NCBI GenBank assembly: GCA_027618475.1
Contig: JAQCEJ010000009.1
Span: 1-64,000, forward strand
DNA from: Planctomycetota bacterium
GTDB taxonomy: Bacteria; Planctomycetota; Planctomycetia; Planctomycetales; Planctomycetaceae
Reading direction: 5' to 3'
DNA length: 64,000 bases
Under the pieces are notes generated by a model. It was not told the DNA's origin. It searched no databases and worked only from the letters and a program-made list of their open reading frames with translations. The position numbers were made by a program, and so were the translations under genes. Shown here one piece after another: positions 16,408 through 23,733 of the stretch (positions within the stretch are counted from its first letter, which is position 1; each line of letters starts with the position of its first letter).

Positions 16408-16694
16408 CGGGTGGCCCCGAAAAATTCGGGGCGGCGCTGCCGTACGAGGCCCCTGCAACATCGCTCGCAGGAAAGCGCAGCCGTCATCTGTTCGTTCGAC
16501 CCGTCACTTGGCGTTCAAACGATTAAAACATGATTAAGAAAAACCTCTGCGAACTCCGCGTTTCAGAAAAGGAGATAGAAGCACAGAGAGACAACATGTC
16601 GTCTTCTTCGACTTGATTATTTTTTGAAGTGATTGCCTCCCGATGAGCGGCCTCACACGGCTGCGCCTCCCCGATGGCATCAGGGCCGCCACGG
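16408..16694. repeat. MITE-like dispersed element, copy A
   Basis: The left end (16408-16444) and the right end (about 16656-16694) are imperfect inverted repeats built on GTGGCCCCGA and GGCGGCGCTGCCGT. The interior resembles that of 23416-23733 along its length. It contains no protein-coding potential. It appears to be a short non-autonomous mobile element or large BIME-like repeat, more degenerate than copy B (for example GGGCCGCCAC instead of GGGGCCACCC at the right end). Confidence 0.6.
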
Positions 16695-17082
16695 ATGAAT
16701 ACGGGAGTGTTTGCCCGTATAACATCAATCGAGGAGATCCTGATCGGTTAACTCGTCGACAAACAGGCAACGTCAGTGTTTCGTCGATTCAATTGCACTG
16801 TCTGTATGAGCACGATGAACTCCCTTTGAGAAACATCGAATTTGTTGACGGCTGATTTATGTACCCTGCTTGATCTTGAATTCCTTCCCGCTCCCCCTCA
16901 TAGTCTGTTATTGATTGCACGAAGGTACGGCCTCAACGATTGCTCTCTTCCTTGAATGGGAGAGGCATTTGCCTATTTTCTGATGTGCAATCGGTCATGT
17001 CTGAGCTAAGATGAGAATGACCTGTCCCGATATCTATGCTGGCGATCGCCGTCCCATGAATTCATTACTCAGGAAGCATTCG
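16695..17082. other. Intergenic region before the TPR-DUF1549 gene
   Basis: Nothing is supported except the ribosome-binding site AGGAAG at 17071-17076. The region must hold the promoter of the unit that starts at 17083. Confidence 0.45.
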
Positions 17083-20000
17083 ATGCCACAAACTAAACGA
17101 TTTGCCTTTCGTCGGATTCTCCGCATGCGACGCGTCGTCGCGACCGTTGTTTGTGTGAGCGCATTCTGCGTGCAGGTGATACCACACGCCGCAGTTGCTT
17201 TTCAGGCCGCCCCCTCACAAGCCAATGCGAATCCCAAACCCGAAGTCAAGTTGACCCCCGCTCAATTGCTTGTCGTTCAGGCACGCGAGCAGATTAAGAA
17301 TTCCCAATGGGATCTCGCTCTAGAAACCAGTGATAAGGCCTTGGCACTCGAACCGACAAACGCCGGTGCCTTTGTTGCCAGGGGAATGGCACTTAACGGA
17401 AAAAGAGATTACGACGCGGCCATCGCCGAATTCGATAAAACCACGGCTCAAGGTGGCCGCGATCCGTTGTTACTGGTCCATCGTGCCGACGCGTATGCCC
17501 ATCGTTCGGTTGCCTTGTATCAGAAGGGACAGTATCTCGACGCGATCAACAGCGCCTATTTCGCATTGCTCGAAAAAAACGACCATCACGAAGCGCATCA
17601 TTTTCGGGCCGTGGCGTACATTGCCCGATCTCAGTTCGATAAGGCCATCAACAGCACGAATCGTGCGATCGGCGCCAAGGCGGATTATGCCGAAGCGTAC
17701 AGCACCCGAGGGGTCGCTTACGCGGGTAAGGGGAACGACAAACAGGCCTTGGCAGATCAAGACAAGGCTCTCGAACTTCAATCCGATCTGGCGATTGCTC
17801 TTCAGCGACGTGGCAGCCTTCATGCGAAGAAGGGCGACCTCGTTAAAGCGATACAAGATCTCGATCAGGCCGTGAAAGTTGCTCCCCAATCACCTGACGC
17901 ACTTTGCGATCGGGCTTTCATTTATGGAATAGGGCGTGATCTGACAAAAGCGGCCGCCGACATCGAAGCGGCTCTTAAACTCGATCCGTCGTTTCCCAAA
18001 GCCAAATTCCAGAAGGGAATGATGCTTCTCGATGCCGGAGAATTCGACGCTGCCATTAAAATGTTCGATGAATCAATCGCTCTGGGCAACATGACGTCAG
18101 CGGTATTTTGTTTTCGAGGGTACGCTCACAGTGGAAACAAATCTTACGAGTTGGCCATCAAAGATTTTTCAGAAGCCCTTAAGATCGATTCAAAAAACAC
18201 GATGGCCCTGTCGGGACGAAGCACTGCCTATCGCAAATCGGGAAATTCAAAAGAAGCCGGGGCCGATGCCTCCGCGCTGAAAAAACTTCAACCCCCTGAA
18301 AAGAAGACTGCGAAGAAAGGCAAAGATAAAGAGAAATCGGATAAGGACGAACCCCCGCCGCGGTTCATGGTCTCGTCCAAGCCGGTCCATCCCGATCGAC
18401 GAACGTTGGCACTCGCTTCGGCAAAACGGATCGACACAATGGTTGCGGCCAACTACGCCAAGCATAAAGTGACTCCGAATCCCAAGACCGACGACGCCAC
18501 ATTCTTGCGGCGAATTTATCTTGACATCACCGGCACAATTCCCACTTATCAACAGACACGGAAGTTCCTCGGATCAAGCGACCCCGATAAACGGGAAGAT
18601 TTGATCGACGAACTGCTGAACAGCGATGGGTATGCCAGTCATTACTTTAATTATTGGGCCGATGTGCTGCGATATACCGACAATCTCAACGGTAACGATC
18701 GGGGCGAACCGTATCGACAGTGGATCAAGCAGTCGCTGGCCGAGAACAAACCGTGGGACAACATGGTGTTCGAAATGCTGACGGCTGAAGGACTGATCTG
18801 GAATAACCCGGCGACCGGATATCTTCAGCGCGATGCCGGTATGCCGCTCGATAATATGAATAACACCGTCCGAATATTTCTCGGCACACGAATCGGATGC
18901 GCTCAATGCCACAATCATCCGTTTGATCGGTGGACGCAAAAAGAATTTTATCAGATGGCTGCCTTTACCTTCGGCACTCTGACGAATACCGGTGGTAGCG
19001 ACACCCGGTACTGGGATAGCAATCCCAACGAACGGTTGCAGGAGCAATACGAAGCGATCGAACAGGAAGAAGAAGACCGGCGAAACAATTCCTATCGTTT
19101 CAATCGACTCATCGGAATCAACATGAGGATCGTTAACGATCAACCGGCTCGCAAGATCACGTTGCCGAAGGATTACGCCTACGATGATGCAAAACCAGGC
19201 GACGTCATCGCACCCAAAGCATTGTTTGGTGAAGACGCCGAAATTCGCTCTGGTGAAACGCCCCGACAGGCGTTTGCACGCTGGCTCACATCGACTGAGA
19301 ACCCACGATTTGCGCTGACCATCGCCAATCGACTCTGGAAGCAGGCGTTCGGCATCGGCCAGATCGAACCCGTCGACGACATGATGGACGACACCGTTGC
19401 CGAAAACCCGGAACTCATGCAACATCTCGAAAAAGAAATGAAGCGACTCAAGTTCGACATGAAGGAATTCTTGCGAATTCTGTTCAACACCGAAACCTAT
19501 CAGCGCGAGGCTTGCTACGACGAAGTGGTGCTCGGTGCTCCTTACCATTTCCCGGGGCCGATTCTGCGGCGCATGACCGCCGAACAGGTCTGGGACTCAT
19601 TTATCACACTCGCGGTCGTCGATCCCTATGAATATCGCGAACTCCCGGCGAATTACCGTACGGACATCATCGGCGTCGATCTGAACGAAATATCGGCCGA
19701 AAAACTTCTCGAAGCCGATTCGCAAGGAAATGTCATCGACGGACAACAGGGGCAACGGCAGAAGAAGTACACCTACAAGGGTGTGGTTCTGGCCCGGGCG
19801 TCGGAACTCCCTTCACCGGTTCCGGCCAGCCATTTTCTTCGCATGTTCGGCCAATCGGACCGCGAGTTGATCTCGGCCTCATCGACAATGGGGTCGGTCC
19901 CGCAGGTGCTGTTTATGTTCAATGGCCCGATCTCACACATGATGCTGGAAAAGAACTCCACCATCTACAATAACGTGATGCGCAAGAAAACAGTCGACGA

Positions 20001-20157
20001 CGGCGTTCGTGCCGTCTTCTGGACCATTCTGAATCGTGATCCTGCCCCGGAAGAACTGGAGCTGGCCAAAGAAGAAGTCAAACAGAACGGTCCGGCGGGT
20101 TACGGTAACATTGTCTGGTCTCTGGTCAACACGCGCGAGTTTCTGTTCATCCAATAA
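17083..20157 (+). CDS. TPR - DUF1549 - DUF1553 fusion protein, exported
   Basis: A 1024-residue exported protein. A basic N-terminus and hydrophobic segment (VVATVVCVSAFCVQVI) form the signal peptide. About nine TPR repeats span residues 60-400. A Lys-rich linker (KKGKDKEKSDKD) follows, then DUF1549 from about 445 containing CAQCHNHPFDRW near 607, and DUF1553 from about 724 to the end (NPRFALTIANRLWKQAFG). DUF1549/DUF1553 proteins usually begin with a cytochrome c-like domain; here TPRs take its place. Only the internal CxxCH remains. The start is the ATG with AGGAAG 6 bases upstream; an in-frame ATG at 17056 lacks a site. A DUF1501 gene and a sialidase-like gene follow. The biochemical role of the family is not established. 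Confidence 0.88.
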   Translation: MPQTKRFAFRRILRMRRVVATVVCVSAFCVQVIPHAAVAFQAAPSQANANPKPEVKLTPAQLLVVQAREQIKNSQWDLALETSDKALALEPTNAGAFVARGMALNGKRDYDAAIAEFDKTTAQGGRDPLLLVHRADAYAHRSVALYQKGQYLDAINSAYFALLEKNDHHEAHHFRAVAYIARSQFDKAINSTNRAIGAKADYAEAYSTRGVAYAGKGNDKQALADQDKALELQSDLAIALQRRGSLHAKKGDLVKAIQDLDQAVKVAPQSPDALCDRAFIYGIGRDLTKAAADIEAALKLDPSFPKAKFQKGMMLLDAGEFDAAIKMFDESIALGNMTSAVFCFRGYAHSGNKSYELAIKDFSEALKIDSKNTMALSGRSTAYRKSGNSKEAGADASALKKLQPPEKKTAKKGKDKEKSDKDEPPPRFMVSSKPVHPDRRTLALASAKRIDTMVAANYAKHKVTPNPKTDDATFLRRIYLDITGTIPTYQQTRKFLGSSDPDKREDLIDELLNSDGYASHYFNYWADVLRYTDNLNGNDRGEPYRQWIKQSLAENKPWDNMVFEMLTAEGLIWNNPATGYLQRDAGMPLDNMNNTVRIFLGTRIGCAQCHNHPFDRWTQKEFYQMAAFTFGTLTNTGGSDTRYWDSNPNERLQEQYEAIEQEEEDRRNNSYRFNRLIGINMRIVNDQPARKITLPKDYAYDDAKPGDVIAPKALFGEDAEIRSGETPRQAFARWLTSTENPRFALTIANRLWKQAFGIGQIEPVDDMMDDTVAENPELMQHLEKEMKRLKFDMKEFLRILFNTETYQREACYDEVVLGAPYHFPGPILRRMTAEQVWDSFITLAVVDPYEYRELPANYRTDIIGVDLNEISAEKLLEADSQGNVIDGQQGQRQKKYTYKGVVLARASELPSPVPASHFLRMFGQSDRELISASSTMGSVPQVLFMFNGPISHMMLEKNSTIYNNVMRKKTVDDGVRAVFWTILNRDPAPEELELAKEEVKQNGPAGYGNIVWSLVNTREFLFIQ

Positions 20158-20280
20158 CGACGGCGGTATTCAGTCAACGGGTTCGAATTTTTCATCGAGA
20201 CAATTCAACGACCCCGTCATGGTTTCAACCAATCGGTGTCGTAACCTACAACGCAAGAAAGCGAATTCAAGAGTAGACCT

Positions 20281-21567
20281 ATGAAAGAACTTGTTTCCAA
20301 ACTCAATGGTTACGATCGCCGCCAGTTTCTCGAATACGCCGCGAAATCGATGTTGGGAGTCAGCGTACTTCCTCTGTTCGGTAAAACGTCCGTCGCTCAA
20401 ACCGAACCGGTGGGCAAAGCGAAGCGGATGATTTATTTATTCATGAACGGCGGGATGACACATCTCGATACATTCGATTTGAAGCCGGGACACGAAAATC
20501 AGGGAGAAACCCAGCCGATCAATACGGCGGTTCCGGGGCTGCAAATCAGTCAGTATCTGCCGACCCTGGCGGGGCAATTCGATAAGATCGCCGCCATCCG
20601 CTCGATGTACACTCAGACGGGAGATCACCAGGCGGGCGAATACCTGATGCGTACCAGCTATGAAGAAATCGCGACCGAACGCCACCCCTCTATGGGGCCG
20701 TGGATTCAGCAATTCAAAGGACGGCAGAACAAGTCGCTTCCCGATACCGTGCTGATCAGTGCGCCGGCGCGGCATCCCGGTGCCGGATTCTTCGATCCGA
20801 CCTTCAGTCCTCTGCCGATTGGCGATCCCAACCGCGGACTCGAGAATACGGTGGCCCCATCGTATCTTTCGCAGAATTCATTCGAAAAGCGGATACAGCT
20901 GATCGACGCCTTCGACAAAAGATTTCGCACCAAGTACAACAAGCCGAAAATGGTCCAGACGTACAACGATTTCTACACCGAAGCATCGACCCTGCTCGCG
21001 AGCGAAGAACTCAAAGCCTTCGATTTGAACGAGGAAGAGGCTGTCGATCGCGATCGATACGGCCGTGATCCATTCGGTCAGGGATGCCTGTTGGCGCGTC
21101 GTCTTATTGAAAATAACGTGCGCTGTGTCGAAGTCACCTGCGGCGGATGGGATATGCATAGCAGTATTTACGCTGGCGGTACGTTGCCTGGTCGCGCCGG
21201 CATACTCGACCGGGCGATGGGCAATCTCATCACCGACCTGGCCGACCGGGGCCTGCTGGATGAAACGCTGGTCGTGTTAACGACCGAATTCGGACGCTCG
21301 CCTGTGATCAATTACAACGCCGGCCGCGATCACCATCCCGCCGTCTTTTCGGCAGCGATCGCAGGGGGAGGCATCAAAGGTGGGCAGTTCTATGGGACGT
21401 CCGATGCTGCGGGCCATGCCGTCGATAAAGATGGCGTCTCACCCGCCGACTTTAACGCGACGATTGCCCACTCCTTGGGACTCCCGCTGGAGAAGGTCGT
21501 TATTTCTCCCACCGGCCGTCCCTTTAAAGTGGCTCACGACGGAAAGCCGATCGCCGCGCTCGTGTAA
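20281..21567 (+). CDS. DUF1501 protein with Tat-type leader
   Basis: A 428-residue protein of the DUF1501 family, which shares the alkaline-phosphatase/sulfatase fold. The leader YDRRQFLEYAAKSMLG resembles a twin-arginine signal. Family markers are LFMNGGMTHLDTFDLKPGH, RSMYTQTGDHQAGEYLM, VEVTCGGWDMHS, LTTEFGRSP and GRDHHPAVFSAAIAGGGIKGG. The Asp and His residues in these motifs correspond to the metal sites of the superfamily. It lies 123 bases after the TPR-DUF1549 gene, the standard pairing in planctomycetes. The substrate is unknown; polysaccharide breakdown is usually suspected. Confidence 0.9.
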   Translation: MKELVSKLNGYDRRQFLEYAAKSMLGVSVLPLFGKTSVAQTEPVGKAKRMIYLFMNGGMTHLDTFDLKPGHENQGETQPINTAVPGLQISQYLPTLAGQFDKIAAIRSMYTQTGDHQAGEYLMRTSYEEIATERHPSMGPWIQQFKGRQNKSLPDTVLISAPARHPGAGFFDPTFSPLPIGDPNRGLENTVAPSYLSQNSFEKRIQLIDAFDKRFRTKYNKPKMVQTYNDFYTEASTLLASEELKAFDLNEEEAVDRDRYGRDPFGQGCLLARRLIENNVRCVEVTCGGWDMHSSIYAGGTLPGRAGILDRAMGNLITDLADRGLLDETLVVLTTEFGRSPVINYNAGRDHHPAVFSAAIAGGGIKGGQFYGTSDAAGHAVDKDGVSPADFNATIAHSLGLPLEKVVISPTGRPFKVAHDGKPIAALV

Positions 21568-21608
21568 TTGGCACGGTTTCCGTGACGAATGTCAAAGAAG
21601 GCATCAAT

Positions 21609-22880
21609 ATGCTACGGTCGTCGCGTATGCAGATTCTCATGATCGCCGCGTGTTCGATGCCGTTGTACCCGACGGTCATCGAGGCGTTTACCGAGAAAAA
21701 TTCATCTGCCGGAGCATCGGTATTTGATCAGCCCCCCTACGACGGGATCTCCCTCCTCCACCGGGAGAAGGGAGACGCCGTCTGGCAACAGGCAATTCCC
21801 GAACCGTGGCGTAAACGTCTTGCGATCATTTCCGGTAAACCTCCGCTGATCGATGTTCCTTATCAATACGAAGATGCAACAACACCTGTCCCCGAACAGG
21901 AAAACATCTACCGTAACGCGTTCTCGATTGTCTACGACGATAAACGCTGCGTCGCCATCTCGATCGTCAGCCGCCACGGATACGATACCGGCGTCGGTTT
22001 CCCTGACGAAAAGCTGTGGTATTGCGTCTCAACCGATGGGGGCAAAACCTATGATCCCGACCGTCCAATCATTCAGCACGGCGAAGAATACACTCCCCTG
22101 CACCCCAACAAGTACGTCTACGTTGGCAAGAACGGTTTCGAGACATCGGGGGGGTGGATCAACCGGCTGAGTAACGGGCAGATCCTTTTCCCCTTCTGTT
22201 ATGCGCCGCTGGACGAGAACGGCAAGCAGTACAACCCTGTGGGGGGTTACACCTTCAGTTATGTCGCCTGTCTCCTCGGAACGTGGAACGAAGCGGGAGA
22301 TGATGTAATCTGGGACGTCAGTCGGGATATTCAAATCTCGGGCGAGCTGTCGTCGCGGGGCGTCAACGAGTGCGCTCCCGTGGAATTGAAGGCGCCCGGA
22401 CATGTGCTGATGGTCAGCCGAGGCGGCAATTCGCCAAACACCGGCACGCAGAAGGCCTGTCATTGGAAGACGCTTTCGACCGATTATGGAAAAACGTGGT
22501 CGGAGTATACTCGTTTTACGTACGACACTGGCGAAGAGTTCAATTCTCCCTCGTCGTTCGCCAATGCGATTCGTAGTTCCAAAACCGGAAAAGCGTACTG
22601 GGTGGGCAACATCAGCCGAACGAAACCGGAAGGAAACGCACCCCGTTTTCCCATTGTTATTGGCGAGATCGATGAAGAATCACTCAGTCTGAGGAAGAAG
22701 ACCGTCACAATCATCGATGACTTTCATGAAGGAGATCCTGCGGGATTGCAACTCTCGAATTTTGGTCTCGTCGAAGATCCTCAGACCGGGCACCTCGTAA
22801 TAACTCTTAACCGCACCGACCATCTCGAACCGGTGTTGGAATGCGAAGGAGTCCATTCGTACGTCATTGAGGTGAATTAA
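21609..22880 (+). CDS. Sialidase-like (BNR/Asp-box) six-bladed propeller protein
   Basis: A 423-residue protein with a signal-like N-terminus (LMIAACSMPLYPTVIEAF). Two Asp-box motifs are clear, STDGGKTYDP and STDYGKTWSE, typical of sialidase-type beta-propellers, and further blades match loosely. The N-terminal Arg of true sialidases (FRIP motif) is not evident, so it may be a glycoside hydrolase of other specificity or a binding protein. The ATG at 21609 has AGAAGG 8 bases upstream and is preferred to 21582. It begins 41 bases after the DUF1501 gene, so the three genes from 17083 probably form one operon dealing with a sugar polymer. Confidence 0.75.
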   Translation: MLRSSRMQILMIAACSMPLYPTVIEAFTEKNSSAGASVFDQPPYDGISLLHREKGDAVWQQAIPEPWRKRLAIISGKPPLIDVPYQYEDATTPVPEQENIYRNAFSIVYDDKRCVAISIVSRHGYDTGVGFPDEKLWYCVSTDGGKTYDPDRPIIQHGEEYTPLHPNKYVYVGKNGFETSGGWINRLSNGQILFPFCYAPLDENGKQYNPVGGYTFSYVACLLGTWNEAGDDVIWDVSRDIQISGELSSRGVNECAPVELKAPGHVLMVSRGGNSPNTGTQKACHWKTLSTDYGKTWSEYTRFTYDTGEEFNSPSSFANAIRSSKTGKAYWVGNISRTKPEGNAPRFPIVIGEIDEESLSLRKKTVTIIDDFHEGDPAGLQLSNFGLVEDPQTGHLVITLNRTDHLEPVLECEGVHSYVIEVN

Positions 22881-23025
22881 GTATCGCACACTTCACCTCG
22901 CTACTTACTGTATTTTAGCTGATGTGCCCCGGATCACTTTCAATCCCTTCCCATTCGTTTTGGATGGCACCGATGCGATCAGATCGAACCAGGATAAAGT
23001 CCACCCCCAATTTTCACGGCTCGCA

Positions 23026-23063
23026 GTGGTGTGGCCCGAATGAATTCGGGGAGATTTGCCGTA
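23026..23063. repeat. Isolated end of the MITE-like element
   Basis: GTGGTGTGGCCCGAATGAATT and the following bases to GCCGTA resemble the left terminal repeat of copies A and B (16408-16444, 23416-23452) with several changes. No matching right end is seen nearby, so it may be a solo, decayed end. Confidence 0.35.
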
Positions 23064-23141
23064 TCATTTCCACCAGGGCACCTGGCAATGAATTCATGGC
23101 ATCCCCCCCGTGAAAACGAATCCTTTTGGGAGAATCCCTTC

Positions 23142-23384
23142 ATGGCCCTCGAAACCGCCCGCACGTTTCTGCTCTGGTGTTTCGTCATCAACTACGCCAT
23201 TCTCGTCGTCTGGTTTTTGATGTTCTGGCGGGGGAGGAACTGGATCCACCGGTTTCACGGAGAGTGTTTTCGGATGTCGACCGAGCAATTCGACGCCATT
23301 CATTACCTGCTGCTGGGAATCTACAAGATCGGGCTGATTCTGTTCGTCATCGTGCCGTATGTTGCTCTCAGTCTGATCGAGTGA
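23142..23384 (+). CDS. DUF6868-type small membrane protein
   Basis: This 80-residue protein has two membrane helices, LLWCFVINYAILVVWFLMFW and IYKIGLILFVIVPYVALSLI. The sequence between them (HGECFRMSTEQFDAIHYLL) is the conserved core of the DUF6868 family as I recall it. The function is unknown. The start at 23142 has GGGAGA upstream; the frame extends back to 23031 but the added residues come from the decayed repeat end. It is flanked by repeats on both sides. Confidence 0.75.
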   Translation: MALETARTFLLWCFVINYAILVVWFLMFWRGRNWIHRFHGECFRMSTEQFDAIHYLLLGIYKIGLILFVIVPYVALSLIE

Positions 23385-23415
23385 CGGCCAAGAATCGCTT
23401 CTCGTGCCAAAACCA

Positions 23416-23733
23416 CGGGTGGCCCCGAAAAATTCGGGGCGGCGCAGCCGTACAAGGCCACTGCAAAATCGCTCGCATGAAATCGCAGCTGTCACCTGGT
23501 CATTCGCCCCGGCCACCCGGTGCTTAAACGATTATAAGAATAATGATTGAGAAGCACCTCCGCGAACTCTGTGCTCTCTGCGTTTCTATCTCTTTCTTTT
23601 TGAAACGCAGAGAGCGCAGAGGACGCTGAGAAGCAACACTTTGCTTTTACAACTTGACTATTCCTTGACGCTCTTGTCAGTCGATGAGCTGCCTCGCACG
23701 GCTGCGCCGCCCCGATTTCATCGGGGCCACCCG
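23416..23733. mobile_element. MITE-like dispersed element, copy B
   Basis: This 318-base element has terminal inverted repeats of about 36 bases: CGGGTGGCCCCGAAAAATTC on the left and its counterpart ending CATCGGGGCCACCCG on the right, each including GGCGGCGCAGCCGT or its complement. A perfect internal 14-base inverted repeat (23573-23586 with 23602-23615) forms a central hairpin. The interior aligns with copy A at 16408. It encodes nothing recognisable. Such a structure fits a non-autonomous mobile element or a large palindromic intergenic repeat. Confidence 0.65.

Follow-up and report, generated by a model that had tools for sequence, protein, structure and literature searches.

Two elements in the window (the whole 64,000-nucleotide stretch analysed here, part of contig C139 in genome G000, whose assembly comprises 5.93 Mb in 218 contigs) are bounded by inverted REP sequences and are probably non-autonomous, internally deleted, MITE-like derivatives of a REP-leader-RAYT-REP transposon, moved in trans as single-stranded DNA. 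They belong, as atypical members, to a family in which at least 12 copies are paired. As judged by sequence, their ends match a putatively autonomous unit in related genomes, none having been found in their own genome. The preliminary description had called the elements MITE-like, a term that suits a non-autonomous element bounded by terminal inverted repeats, although the ends are REPs and not the terminal repeats of a classical MITE.

Two REP-bounded elements in the window

The two elements, copies A and B, and their parts are as follows.

16408-16690, plus strand: copy A, REP-bounded non-autonomous element of 283 bp, placed by its similarity to B and the limits of that similarity
16409-16450, plus strand: left REP of copy A, with GTGG, the hairpin CCCCGAA/TTCGGGG, a second hairpin and a tail
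16650-16691, minus strand: right REP of copy A, decayed, with GCGG replacing GTGG
23416-23733, plus strand: copy B, REP-bounded non-autonomous element of 318 bp, placed by its similarity to A and its terminal inverted repeats
23417-23458, plus strand: left REP of copy B
23691-23732, minus strand: right REP of copy B
23558-23630, no strand assigned: palindromic repeat of a different dispersed family, nested within copy B

Both copies, described earlier as about 300 bases long, are real, with the right limit of A corrected from 16694 to 16690. They lie on the same strand, 7 kb apart, and align over 317 columns at 71% identity. Compared together with 1.5 kb on each side, they cease to resemble each other where the elements end, and therefore lie outside any longer duplication; the case of only two copies, arising by segmental duplication, was checked and is ruled out. 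Shared terminal inverted repeats had been claimed for both copies; they are present in B (43 nt, 88% complementary), whereas the right end of A has decayed. The string GGTGGCCCCGA-N-TCGGGGCGGC occurs three times in the window and in none of 100 shuffles. Between the REPs lie spacers of ~200 nt in A and ~230 nt in B. The perfect 14-base hairpin reported at the centre of B (GCTCTCTGCGTTTC/GAAACGCAGAGAGC) is borne out, and sits in the nested palindromic repeat, which is also found on other contigs (C183, C92, C25 and C46 among them).

Further repeats lie close to copy B.

~22921-22975, plus strand: putative left end, truncated, of the canonical form described below (5' extension and start of the left REP), from comparison by eye
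~22977-23087, plus strand: copy of a different dispersed repeat, with matches in C10, C218 and C44
23747-23836, no strand assigned: inverted pair of REPs of other families, adjoining B

The 'solo end' formerly placed at 23026-23063 does not hold up: only 21 nt match the REP, at 81%, and the sequence belongs to the repeat at ~22977-23087, which recurs in C10 (77%, 111 nt), C218 (74.5%, 102 nt) and C44 (82%, 50 nt). That repeat, present also in loci L057, L153 and L037, contains GTGGCCCGAATGAATTCGGGG. The putative truncated end was compared by eye with the left flanks of the copies on C18, C20, C84 and C203; it has a weak profile match at 22965-22982, and its RAYT-like score of 26.0 is within background. 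One half of the inverted pair adjoining B (GTAGCTGGCCTCTGTGAGGCC; 23832, minus strand) is a copy of the GTAGCTGGCCTCTGCGAGGCC REP type that flanks a RAYT gene on C172.

A dispersed REP family with a shorter, commoner form

A genome-wide search with B, as proposed in the preliminary description, returned 50 matches; only A and B themselves were full length, the remainder being mostly ends. That description had missed the ~30 ends present genome-wide and the shorter, commoner form. At E ≤ 1, the typed REP consensus matched 21 places in the genome, of which the weakest (0.6) is probably due to chance. Profile scanning of the fetched loci gave 30 hits. One, in coding sequence (C139:28710), was discarded, and adding the left end of the C203 copy to the 29 kept made 30 aligned ends. 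Eleven inverted pairs account for 22 of them (A, B, C18, C20, C22, C34 twice, C54, C80, C84 and C203), the arrangement of two inverted REPs that characterizes REPINs and BIMEs, and 7 are unpaired. In a twelfth pair (C54:3138-3349), the left end is decayed and lies outside the alignment. The commonest, canonical form is an element of ~216 bp (216–219 bp; C18, C20, C34, C80, C84 and C203).

Each end consists of GGGTGG, hairpin 1 (7–8 bp), hairpin 2 and a conserved tail, terminated by GAGGC in most copies. Both ends of B and the left end of A, but not the right end of A, conform to the REP rule in the accessible text of PMC6006769 (GT[AG]G 0–2 nt away from a basal stem of 7 bp or more, with a loop of 2–5 nt). 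The accompanying REP spacing of at most 150 nt is exceeded by A and B; the canonical form, at ~130 nt, falls within it. Several canonical copies (L056, L058, L062 and L009; by eye) have a conserved stretch of ~45 nt (GGGTGCCCCCG..TTTCAATCC..CGTTTT) before the left REP, so the left boundary given here for the canonical element is provisional. The exact REP pattern had 0 matches across a wider genome contig collection that possibly does not include this genome.

Across the aligned ends, 97.1% of 308 cells pair (28 distinct rows), against a shuffled mean of 89.7. This pairing, the 19 two-sided compensatory cells and the covariation score of 0.218 were each reached in 0 of 500 shuffles, while two other counts were ordinary: 3 pairs with two-sided change (276 of 500 shuffles) and 7 further pair types (204 of 500). 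Coming from related rows, the compensatory changes, seen in hairpin 1, support, but do not prove, selection on structure. They would also suit a family that does not move, made up of regulatory or terminator hairpins between genes that recombination has spread or that selection on RNA structure has retained downstream of genes, as would the very strong folding of copy B as single-stranded DNA (z −10.6 against 100 shuffles) and the position of several copies 3' of genes (flanks read by eye). We regard that reading as very improbable. Among 59 genomes (own included, with no other member of the window's genus), the canonical element occurs elsewhere only as a single 43-nt end in G005; similarity goes no further than the element ends; the elements had no match in Rfam; and in relatives the REPs are associated with RAYT genes, as described next.

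REP-RAYT-REP units in related genomes

We scanned 150 genomes of the same taxonomic family, none other of the window's genus, with the REP pattern. Four had matches (19 in G000, the window's own genome, 9 in G087, 6 in G110 and 1 in G125), and the reversed control had 0. Complete REP-leader-RAYT-REP units were found twice in G087 and once in G110. Between the two G087 units (G087_551, 1354-2060; G087_3180, 1361-2063), identity is 76.6%; the outer ends of their REPs fall at 1354/2059 and 1361/2062, and outside the REPs the loci have no likeness. These boundaries coincide exactly with the REPs, from which we infer that the units have moved. In G005, the 3' part of a RAYT gene is followed by a near-identical REP. 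A REP profile built from the window's genome alone finds the RAYT-adjacent REPs of both G087 (E 7.5e-6) and G005 (E 1.5e-6). A transposase with matching ends, proposed as a check in the preliminary description, is thus represented by RAYTs flanked by near-identical REPs in related genomes, but none was found in this assembly.

The RAYTs flanked by matching REPs in relatives score 99.9, 108 and 113 bits against the NF047646 cut-off of 80 bits, and 30–36 bits against the IS200 cut-off of 55. H[VM]H and YMHxNP are visible in their alignment, in keeping with the HUH motif and with Y-x-x-x-NP. Searching the PDB by sequence turned up no relative at E ≤ 0.001. Immediately preceding the REP-RAYT-REP unit is another dispersed repeat (L134, 1210-1350), which G087 and G110 contain in many copies.

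A RAYT relic in the canonical copies

Read in reverse, the left half of the canonical element resembles the C-terminus of a RAYT, just before the REP. A strict HMM without frameshifts gave a best hit, in one C54 copy (C54a), at E 0.01 (0.012 for the stretch) and 8.4 bits, against 5.4 for the best in 20 shuffled sets, and scored the canonical consensus at 3.1 bits, a value reached or exceeded by 8 of 999 shuffles. Since this result was weak and frameshifts are expected of a pseudogene, we used a frameshift-tolerant alignment with a custom scoring scheme. The score was at least 31 in nine of ten canonical or near-canonical copies: 47.8 for C80, 42.2 for C18 and C20, 41.9 for C203, 38.0 for C54a, 33.1 for C22, 31.9 for C84, 31.6 for C34a and 31.1 for C34c, the tenth being C54b at 16.1. 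Random 130-mers from the same genome (n = 3000) had a mean of 19.0 (sd 3.7, maximum 41.7); none reached 41.9, 6 reached 38 and 28 reached 31, a conservative background, being drawn from loci that hold some of the elements. For C80, C22 and C34c, the alignment runs as far as the final RAYT residue, which is 8 nt from the REP, a distance close to the spacing in intact RAYT genes. These alignments show the canonical ~216-bp copies to carry putative decayed RAYT C-terminal codons on the reverse strand, ending before the 3' REP. No relic was detected in the four copies of the A/B type, which stayed at background level (A 16.4, B 14.8, C129 17.0 and C28 16.2).

The relic bears on whether these are instead ordinary REPINs with spacers of any origin, in which the REP pair itself is the mobile entity and the RAYT-like codons are there by chance or capture. 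Inverted REP doublets are the unit that PMC3116915, in the part available, defines as REPINs; doublets of a related REP, ~125 bp long, are present in G087 and G110; and A and B have no relic. We nevertheless consider ordinary REPINs an unlikely explanation, as in several copies the relic lies where it should, pointing the right way and correctly spaced from the 3' REP, and REP-bounded RAYT fragments occur in a second family as well. Derivation from a REP-leader-RAYT-REP unit by internal deletion is the reading we prefer.

RAYT genes and a second REP family in the same genome

The genome has 14 hits to PF01797, 13 matches to a RAYT protein query and 16 hits to NF047646 at E ≤ 1, 8 of them above the cut-off, and none of these searches found a cognate RAYT with this family's REPs in the assembly. 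No REP of the A/B family was found in 35 partly overlapping loci of RAYT genes or fragments (~1.5 kb to either side, or less where a contig ends). REPs are expected to have at least one copy no more than 1000 nt from a RAYT gene of their own genome; such proximity is seen for the near-identical REPs of G087 and G005 but not here. The cognate RAYT seems to have been lost from the genome or to be missing from the assembly, and the A/B REP family is therefore probably decaying.

Other REP types do flank RAYTs in this genome: GTAGCTCCGGTTGC types, sharing the two-hairpin layout, on C109 and C44, and GTAGGCTGGGAC on C133. In a second family, REPs of the type GGGTGGCCCACACGC bound an N-terminal RAYT fragment on C170 (1401-1718 of L152), and stand before further fragments, N-terminal on C113 and C10 and C-terminal on C117. 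The C170 element, used as query, had 18 matches, among them paired pieces on C190, C34 and C153.

Insertion sites

The preliminary description had looked to target-site duplications at the ends; none is visible by eye at A or B, and none is expected of an HUH transposase. Immediately outside the ends, CGC lay within 4 nt at 10 of 18 leader-side or unpaired ends, against a background of 4.7% (P 1.5e-9; the motif was chosen after viewing the flanks, and the decayed end of A was excluded from the count). The terminal inverted repeats and the size of the elements would agree with a classical MITE belonging to an insertion sequence of the DDE type with an unrecognized transposase. We think this the least probable origin of all, given that no target-site duplication was seen by eye, that the ends match RAYT-flanking REPs in relatives and that the flank preference is on one side. 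Flanking direct repeats noticed by eye at C22 (~35 bp) and C34 (20 bp) were not counted as target-site duplications, since the one at C34 resembles another dispersed repeat. At C22:10612-10845 (L055), ~35 bp of the 3' end of a gene stand on both sides of the element.

The G087_3180 unit is absent at the matching locus in G110 and G023, where the interval is otherwise different too (~2.8 kb of other DNA in G110 and ~75 bp in G023, with flank identity of 73–78%), and this three-genome comparison gave no clean empty site. REP doublets were common to G087 and G110 at the sites that could be compared. At the G110 locus (L232), a row of genes for similar ~200-aa proteins with GWWxEG or GWWVH C-termini stands in place of the RAYT unit.

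Origin and relation to known systems

We propose that an HUH Y1 transposase (RAYT) acted on single-stranded DNA, where it would have bound the GTGG-hairpin ends, cut out the REP-bounded segment and re-inserted it without target duplication. Internal deletion would then have produced derivatives of 216–320 bp that moved in trans; A and B would be longer derivatives, in which the nested palindromic repeat may have been acquired before the copy was made.

IS200/IS605-derived non-autonomous elements (PATEs) follow the same HUH Y1 logic, with hairpin ends and no target duplication; unlike them, the elements described here end in inverted REPs, and the related RAYTs score below the IS200 cut-off. 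Like REPINs and BIMEs, the elements have a pair of inverted REPs whose GT[AG]G heads point outward, are intergenic and multi-copy, and fold into a long hairpin; they differ in their longer spacers (80–230 nt) of conserved sequence, in the RAYT C-terminal relic of the canonical form and in low copy number (~30 ends). The units in related genomes resemble REPtrons or RAYT (TnpA_REP) units (NF047646) in their REP-RAYT-REP order with matching REPs and in proteins that pass the cut-off. REPtrons are mostly single-copy and their mobility is unevidenced, according to the text available of PMC8266576, whereas here there are paralogous units with REP-exact boundaries, together with deletion derivatives. 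A RAYT-like gene bounded by long, partly double-palindromic terminal inverted repeats that are also dispersed describes TIRtrons (TIRYTs) as well; in the accessible part of Di Nocera 2013 (PMC3733652), which also reports GTAG repeats in the PVC superphylum, TIRtron repeats are mostly unrelated to REPs, many carrying GGGGWSAS, whereas the ends here are GTGG REPs.

According to the available text of Nunvar 2010 (PMC2817692), a pair of inverted REPs invariably flanks RAYT genes, forming a unit that recalls transposable elements. In the accessible parts of later work, RAYTs are domesticated, with 'no evidence of tnpAREP mobility' (PMC8266576), and tnpA_REP mobility is unevidenced, REPtrons seemingly not transposing as a unit (PMC6006769). 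RAYT goes unmentioned in a review of prokaryotic MITEs (PMC10969869), and within the terms searched we found no open-access paper on RAYT-derived internal-deletion elements.

Our broader proposal, which we hold in even balance, is that REPtrons in this lineage are or recently were true transposons: REP-RAYT-REP would move whole, and REPs and REPINs, the window's elements included, would be its internally deleted offspring. If true, relic-bearing REP-bounded elements and REP-exact paralogous units would together constitute evidence for the mobility of tnpA_REP and REPtrons, and would offer a route by which REPs and REPINs may have originated.
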